The notes beneath the pieces were generated by a model, which saw only the letters and a list, made by a program, of their open reading frames with translations, did no database searches and was not told the DNA's origin. The position numbers and the translations under genes are program-made. Shown here piece by piece: positions 43,356-43,827 of a DNA stretch of 64,000 nucleotides. This DNA is from Teretinema zuelzerae (GTDB lineage Bacteria > Spirochaetota > Spirochaetia > Treponematales > Treponemataceae). The DNA is taken from NCBI RefSeq assembly GCF_021021555.1, contig NZ_JAINWA010000003.1, positions 1,054,001 through 1,118,000 of the forward strand, in the 5' to 3' direction. Each line of letters starts with the position of its first letter. Position 1 is the stretch's first letter.

Positions 43356-43422
43356 TCGCGCCTCGGCGCCCGCCTCAACTCAGGCGGGCGCTCACGATCA
43401 AGTCCCGTCGCCGCACTAATAG

Positions 43423-43451
43423 AAAAAGCAGCCGCTAGGGCTGCTTTTTTT
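43423..43451 (+). terminator. Terminator after the beta/gamma pair (hairpin copy 1)
   Basis: A5-GCAGCC-gcta-GGGCTGC-T7: a strong bidirectional intrinsic terminator, 67 bases after the gamma stop. Confidence 0.85.
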
Positions 43452-43585
43452 GTGCCGGCGATGGGACTTCCCTACGGGCACCCTTTGCGAATCCGACTCA
43501 GGGCGCAAAGGGTATCCCTCGCGCCCTCCTCCCTCGCCTTCGCTCGGCGGGCGCTCACGATCAAGTCCCATCGCCGCACCAATAG

Positions 43586-43614
43586 AAAAAGCAGCCGCTG
43601 GGGCTGCTTTTTTT
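43586..43614. terminator. Bidirectional terminator hairpin, copy 2
   Basis: Same hairpin as copy 1 with one loop change (GCTG), A5 and T7 flanks. Confidence 0.75.
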
Positions 43615-43714
43615 GTGCCGGCGATGGGACTTCCCTACGGGCCGCCCTCGCGCCCTCCTCCCTCGCCTTCGCTCGGCGGGCGCTCACGATCAAGTCCCGT
43701 CGCCGCACTAATAG

Positions 43715-43743
43715 AAAAAGCAGCCGCTGGGGCTGCTTTTTTT
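43715..43743 (-). terminator. Terminator after tRNA-Leu (copy 3)
   Basis: Same hairpin directly after the tRNA 3' end on the minus strand; reads GCAGCC-CAGC-GGCTGC-T5 there. Confidence 0.85.
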
Positions 43744-43744
43744 G

Positions 43745-43827
43745 TGCCGGCGATGGGACTTGAACCCATACATCCTCGCGAATAGTGGATTTTGAGTCCA
43801 CCGCGTCTGCCATTCCGCCACGCCGGC
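43745..43827 (-). tRNA. tRNA-Leu (anticodon CAA)
   Basis: 83 bases. The acceptor arm pairs GCCGGCG with CGCCGGC, discriminator A. Anticodon stem GTGGA/TCCAC encloses the loop CTCAAAA, anticodon CAA (reads UUG). The long variable arm of leucine tRNAs is present, and the T arm is ATGGG-TTCAAGT-CCCAT. CCA is not encoded. It is transcribed in the direction of the P-type ATPase, 27 bases behind that gene's stop. Confidence 0.95.

Follow-up and report, generated by a model that had tools for sequence, protein, structure and literature searches.

The nearest known system to the arrays reported here is the set of rtT repeats at the tyrT locus of Escherichia coli K-12 (tyrT/tyrV; RttR/RtT sRNA; Rfam RF00391; "tpr"). 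The rtT units are 178 nt long and arranged in tandem. Each opens with the final 19 nt of tRNA-Tyr, beginning in the T-loop (the copies at +0, +178, +356, and +534 are exact), and carries an inverted tail arm (GCGGGGAAGGAT) and a hairpin-rich spacer. Such repeats were found in 4680 of 5426 E. coli genomes, at 1 to 9 places each and in numbers that vary between strains; they were missing from 746 of the 5426 at this sensitivity, and 18 occurrences lay on plasmids. Integrative elements that target tRNA genes with a tyrosine recombinase carry a block of identity from the T-loop to the 3' end, restore the tRNA, and can form tandem units. Here, we report a tandem array behind the tRNA-Leu(CAA) gene of Teretinema zuelzerae, within a 64,000-nucleotide stretch of its genome (the window), and the family of structured spacers, S, to which it belongs.

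Like the rtT repeats, S arrays are made of tandem units that open with the neighboring tRNA's 3' tail (T-loop onward) and that contain an inverted tail arm and a hairpin-rich spacer. The rtT repeats differ in being confined to one tRNA species, in their greater length and different sequence, in a junction one base further 3', and in a unit with no obvious terminator. With the integrative elements, S shares an att-like core at the tRNA 3' end that restores the gene, but its unit has no integrase and no gene, and one spacer serves many tRNAs with different tails. REP/BIME sequences and MITEs are, like S, short, gene-less, palindromic, present in many copies at separate sites, and probably moved in trans; unlike them, S has a strict site at tRNA/tmRNA 3' ends, where the local tail is copied, and a 125-nt multi-hairpin core. 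Set against the MITE/REP pattern, the ends of S comprise an inverted T-arm at one end plus the tail duplication, and no transposase was identified.

Array at tRNA-Leu(CAA)

The features of the array are listed below in tRNA sense. R1 is a covariance model built from an alignment of 24 spacers, all from spirochaetes; a slash marks the junction within the T-loop.

43744..43827, minus strand: tRNA-Leu(CAA) gene (ARAGORN; Rfam tRNA, 59.7 bits)
43745-43761: 3' tail of tRNA-Leu(CAA), from T-loop TTC/AAGTCC on
43715..43741, minus strand: unit 1 terminator hairpin, AAAAAGCAGCC..GGCTGCTTTTT (inverted-repeat scan and sequence)
43692..43708, minus strand: unit 1 inverted tail, plus strand AAGTCCCGTCGCCGCAC (pairs with the tRNA tail over 16 nt, 94% complementary)
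43633..43691, minus strand: unit 1 spacer S, short form without two distal hairpins
43616..43632, minus strand: second exact tail copy of tRNA-Leu(CAA) (17-mer search)
43586..43612, minus strand: unit 2 terminator hairpin (inverted-repeat scan)
43563..43579, minus strand: unit 2 inverted tail, plus strand AAGTCCCATCGCCGCAC (inverted-repeat scan, tail search)
43470..43562, minus strand: unit 2 spacer S, short form plus an extra hairpin (ACCCTTTGCG..CGCAAAGGGT)
43453..43469, minus strand: third exact tail copy of tRNA-Leu(CAA) (17-mer search)
43423..43449, minus strand: unit 3 terminator hairpin (inverted-repeat scan)
43400..43416, minus strand: unit 3 inverted tail, plus strand AAGTCCCGTCGCCGCAC (sequence)
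43385..43399, minus strand: unit 3 truncated S (GATCGTGAGCGCCCG) (sequence; R1 remnant, 12.2 bits)

The 17-nt tail (TGCCGGCGATGGGACTT) lies inside the tRNA gene (43745-43761) and recurs exactly at 43453-43469 and 43616-43632, as a first-pass annotation of the sequence had correctly placed it. The window holds five matches at up to 3 mismatches, where chance predicts 0.4, and every shuffle gave fewer than five. That annotation had described the sequence following each copy as unrelated; read in tRNA sense, each copy instead precedes the same terminator hairpin and arm and follows the shared spacer. The order is thus tail, terminator hairpin, inverted tail, S (starting with GATCGTGAGCGCCCG and ending with CCCGTAGGG), and next tail. 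The three units, set 163 and 129 nt apart, form a 117-nt direct repeat (80-98% identity) in which the arms make up inverted pairs, and the array comprises two full units and a partial one, whose truncated S runs into a hairpin behind the convergent oadG gene. R1 matched the spacers of unit 1 (43625-43698; 48.3 bits; E, 8e-11) and unit 2 (43462-43569; 37.5 bits; E, 6e-8).

Inverted arms had been proposed for all copies and are present in all of them, with a one-base difference between copies; the arm that had been quoted, AAGTCCCATCGCCGCAC, occurs in the middle copy only, and the other two read AAGTCCCGTCGCCGCAC. The CCA after the middle arm had been likened to a mature tRNA tail, but it is not one, because CTA stands there in the other two copies. 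A CCA-bearing copy of a mature tRNA was rejected as the source, the CCA being found in one arm only and the copies extending into DNA downstream of the tRNA. Long spurious open reading frames run through the array on both strands (43450-43813; e.g., 113 amino acids on the minus strand) and resemble tpr, the arginine-rich, "protamine-like" gene annotated in the E. coli repeats. Frames spanning the array had no match in Pfam; a protein-coding repeat was rejected on this count and on the single-base indels and strict stem covariation of S.

Other copies in the T. zuelzerae genome

A DNA search of the same genome returned a second locus, in which the spacer core is the same but the tail, terminator, and inverted arm all differ. 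Screening of 47 distinct tRNA genes for tail arrays located others at Thr-CGT (three extra tails) and fMet-CAT, together with an inverted arm (a remnant) at Ala-CGC; the Pro-CGG and Leu-CAG arrays are displaced by islands, ~42 and ~38 kb from the intact tRNA. The covariance model extended the list to elongator Met and to ssrA, the tmRNA gene (recognized from its sequence). Each of the 12 model matches in this genome (E up to 1) falls at a tRNA/tmRNA 3' end or a displaced fragment of one, and S stands behind Leu-CAA, Thr-CGT, Pro-CGG, Leu-CAG, both Met-CAT genes, and tmRNA. Tail arrays after ssrA genes were seen at loci L106 (G000:C1:669194-672315) and L147.

The islands (loci L063, L009, L035, and L065) are ~38 kb long at tRNA-Leu(CAG) (G000:C3:1173395-1212018) and ~42 kb long at tRNA-Pro(CGG) (G000:C3:762147-804335). 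In both, a tyrosine recombinase gene is the first gene, adjoining the intact tRNA, and the far end holds the tRNA 3' half and then the old tail array; the recombinase match of the Leu-CAG island is partial and just below the Pfam cut-off (stretch cut). The arrayed tRNAs of this genome (Leu-CAA, Leu-CAG, Thr-CGT, Pro-CGG, both Met-CAT, and the remnant at Ala-CGC) all have C at anticodon position 34. A bias to C-first anticodons fails at the level of the order: S is also found at Ser-UGA, Ser-GCU, Gln-UUG, Val-UAC, and other tRNAs.

Spacer S across the order

A blastn search with the Pro-CGG unit gave matches in 29 of 59 relatives, mostly adjoining tRNA genes of many kinds; a few weak matches, in coding DNA, were due to chance. 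With R1, S was found in 128 of 194 genomes and in 41 of the 56 genera of the order, as well as in some other classes of the phylum, patchily and at 0 to at least 18 copies per genome. Named records returned by an exact-pattern search of a public genome collection were all spirochaetes or Treponema MAGs. Carriage by phages was rejected, two pattern matches on viral contigs being chance hits in other surroundings with no tRNA. No Rfam family matches S, and searches of the open-access literature on rtT/tyrT and on spirochaete tRNA repeats turned up no account of such a family.

Among the highest-scoring matches, 127 strong, full-length ones were inspected, bearing in mind that R1 includes 6 to 7 nt of T-arm per flank, which favors tRNA-like flanks. 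Within the stretch taken around each match, a tRNA or tmRNA gene lies just upstream on the same strand in 120 of the 127, and 26 kinds of tRNA/tmRNA gene act as hosts. The seven others comprise four on displaced fragments (Lys, Met, Leu, and tmRNA) and three orphans. The local gene's own tail is copied at the end of 109 matches, exactly over 16 nt in 88, a fraction that is an upper estimate because the matches were chosen for high score and R1 carries the T-arm flanks; blastn matches without these flanks likewise lie at tRNAs. The first-pass annotation had asked whether copies sit only at tRNA ends, and they lie almost only at tRNA or tmRNA ends.

The tail copy begins at a single point of the T-loop, TTC/RANTCC (T-loop position 57 to the gene end), and the junction is sharp: for 70 of the 84 first units, the shared sequence extends a single base upstream. 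The tail itself, 17 to 18 nt, is the minimal direct repeat, and the inverted arm is mostly 8 to 10 nt, sometimes up to ~25. Units are ~130-190 bp long, carry no gene, and also occur between tRNAs inside serine tRNA operons. These comparisons show that a unit is made up of the tail, a stretch in which a terminator is often present, an inverted repeat of the T-stem strand or more, and a conserved multi-hairpin S ending in ...GGAAGGC. They also show that one and the same S recurs behind many kinds of tRNA, accompanied each time by the tail of the local gene. Integron attC sites, the core of which is GTTRRRY, were considered and were not supported on inspection, as S ends at TTC/RANTCC. At three loci (L105, L132, and L083 1-900), S or a displaced tRNA end is inverted relative to the neighboring tRNA, as if palindromic ends had allowed inversion. 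The window array is one degraded member of a real, family-wide feature; an assembly artefact, which had been raised as a concern, is ruled out by the presence of units in many independent genomes.

Fold and covariation of S

The fold of S (24 spacers) has three main covarying stems and an enclosing stem formed by the inverted arm and the next tail. Compensatory change occurs in 24 of 31 pairs, 92.9% of cells are paired, and the covariation score is 0.62 (0.18 shuffled; 0.03-0.14 when slid). Selection at the RNA level would tolerate G-U far more than A-C. The share of G-U among stem pairs is 1.4% in S, compared with 8.8% in tRNA stems of the same loci and 13% in column shuffles, and G-T to A-C mismatches stand at 45:28 in S stems versus 107:1 in tRNA acceptor stems, where the register was picked for best pairing and the A-C count thereby somewhat lowered. 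Because covariation is almost purely Watson-Crick, with G-U near absent, the constraint on S looks to be one at the DNA level: either a single DNA strand is recognized in its folded form, or replication corrects one palindrome arm against the other. If true, S is a clear case of compensatory changes signaling DNA structure and a trap for RNA-family discovery.

Inheritance and spread

At tRNA-Leu(CAA), two relatives of the same genus (G006 and G007) have a plain tRNA with one terminator and no unit. A third (G009), which resembles the window in having a cation-ATPase gene upstream, carries a single unit, with the shortened form of the spacer also seen in the window and a compensated stem (GGACCC/GGGTCC against GCGCCC/GGGCGC). 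Outside its own array, the nearest neighbor of S was in the same genome in 29 of 127 cases (shuffled mean, 1.7; largest, 5), and the Met and Leu-CAA elements of G045 are 13% apart with different tails. Where the nearest neighbor in another genome was taken, it stood at the same tRNA in 27 of 117 cases versus 3.8 when shuffled. The spacers carry two signals, inheritance with the tRNA locus and spread between tRNAs within a genome; movement is not frequent, since S shows inheritance by locus. The tail follows the target, not the element, so that target-site duplication fits better than a carried att core. These comparisons covered one genome per species, and hence no clean pair of empty and filled sites in near-identical strains.

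Interpretation

We read the window as holding a short tandem array of a gene-less, non-autonomous insertion element specific to tRNA/tmRNA 3' ends, with the tail duplicated as the target site, and rate this reading slightly above even odds (roughly 0.55). As a DNA intermediate folded into hairpins, S would enter at the T-loop, and the enzyme would probably be supplied in trans. The tRNA would stay intact because the element duplicates the 17- to 18-bp tail as its target site, and recombination between identical tails would then lengthen or shorten the arrays, as seems to happen in the rtT arrays of E. coli. Adjacent units sometimes have near-identical terminators, for which tandem duplication alone suffices. 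A "mobile palindromic element" was the closest of three guesses in the first-pass annotation, given a family at many tRNAs in many genomes.

Neither an enzyme nor an autonomous copy was found for the S element. A candidate autonomous element between two S copies (L213; G208:C6:14200-19800) turned out to be an island flanked by two tRNA-Met 3' ends, with a near-identical S unit behind each; the 3.8-kb insertion carries an ATPase-like gene.

It seems rather unlikely that S is instead a structured RNA derived from transcription of the tRNA, comparable to the annotated E. coli RtT sRNA, that serves the host, for instance in the control of tRNA maturation or of stress, with units kept by selection. 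The strong covarying fold with conserved loops, an orientation almost always that of the tRNA, and partial inheritance by locus would suit such an RNA; units between tRNAs within operons must be transcribed, and, in read-through RNA, pairing of the tail with the inverted arm would be favored over the tRNA fold. However, G-U pairs are near absent, G-T and A-C mismatches are near-equal, a terminator separates S from the tRNA at many loci, presence is patchy (0 to at least 18 copies per genome), and almost any tRNA is used, with no fixed partner. A narrower role, in which the inverted arm controls tRNA processing at the Leu gene itself, is highly improbable. The pairing of the tRNA 3' end with the downstream arm, on which that suggestion was built, holds up as an energy: folding predicts -64.1 kcal/mol with arm pairing versus -48.2 kcal/mol without it, a gain of ~16 kcal/mol on read-through (energies rather than exact structures are compared, since the plain MFE structure predicted for the isolated tRNA departs from a perfect cloverleaf). 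The arm, however, is located after the terminator, and the predicted fold of the tRNA part is unchanged in the window transcript up to that terminator. In same-genus relatives, the tRNA is retained and followed by a plain terminator, and the arm is only 8 to 10 nt at most family loci. Processing control is not the best reading, because the terminator intervenes and the covariation looks DNA-level; the predicted tail-arm pairing could make read-through transcripts unproductive, probably as a by-product at most loci, where the arm is short.

Passive growth of the arrays, in which the tail and downstream DNA are duplicated by repeated island integration/excision or unequal crossing-over while gene conversion preserves the similarity of S, itself just an old flank, is improbable. 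Arrayed tRNAs are also island targets (Pro-CGG, ~42 kb; Leu-CAG, ~38 kb; tyrosine recombinase genes adjoining the tRNA), the 3.8-kb insertion in G208 sits between two units, and units within an array are near-identical, all of which would fit. The Pro-CGG and Leu-CAG islands recombine upstream, around the anticodon, and not at the T-loop junction of S, and a single structured S that recurs across 41 genera and behind 26 kinds of tRNA/tmRNA gene is no accidental flank. A plain integration scar, which had also been suggested, cannot account for a shared structured spacer at tRNAs with different tails.

Relation to rtT and TD-2 repeats

The rtT model (RF00391) had no match in the window at E up to 10 or in 40 loci at E up to 0.5 or 0.05. 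In the reverse search, the best matches of R1 on 12.2 kb of E. coli DNA, including two other tRNA operons, were the rtT units and the tyrT-tyrV spacer, with E values of 7.5e-4, 3.7e-3, 5.3e-3, and 0.11, which are not independent tests because the rtT repeats are alike. These sequence matches suggest that the S and rtT spacers may be homologous. A wider proposal, which we regard as tentative and somewhat doubtful, is that the elements form an unrecognized class of mobile element that enters as hairpin-folded DNA, recognizes the T-loop in general, duplicates the 17- to 18-nt tail as its target site and so leaves the host gene whole, and extends from spirochaetes to E. coli, with rtT/tpr as a relic. 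If true, a large part of a bacterial phylum has a safe-haven insertion element of tRNA genes that is not in Rfam, the E. coli rtT repeats are one case of a general phenomenon, and nature supplies a system that can target almost any tRNA gene and leave it intact.

The TD-2 repeats of Treponema (Rfam RF03162) are, like S, tandem hairpins of spirochaetes with apical loops that often read CANGGANG. Unlike S, they are dispersed, are abundant in a genus (g15) nearly without S, and have no tRNA tail in the inspected copies. The TD-2 model had no match in the T. zuelzerae genome, and its two matches at L074 (1395-1496 and 1777-1873) lie outside the S unit. A common enzyme for TD-2 and S is possible. 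The TD-2 copies at L214-L225 and L074 are in tandem and have the loop CANGGANG in common with S.
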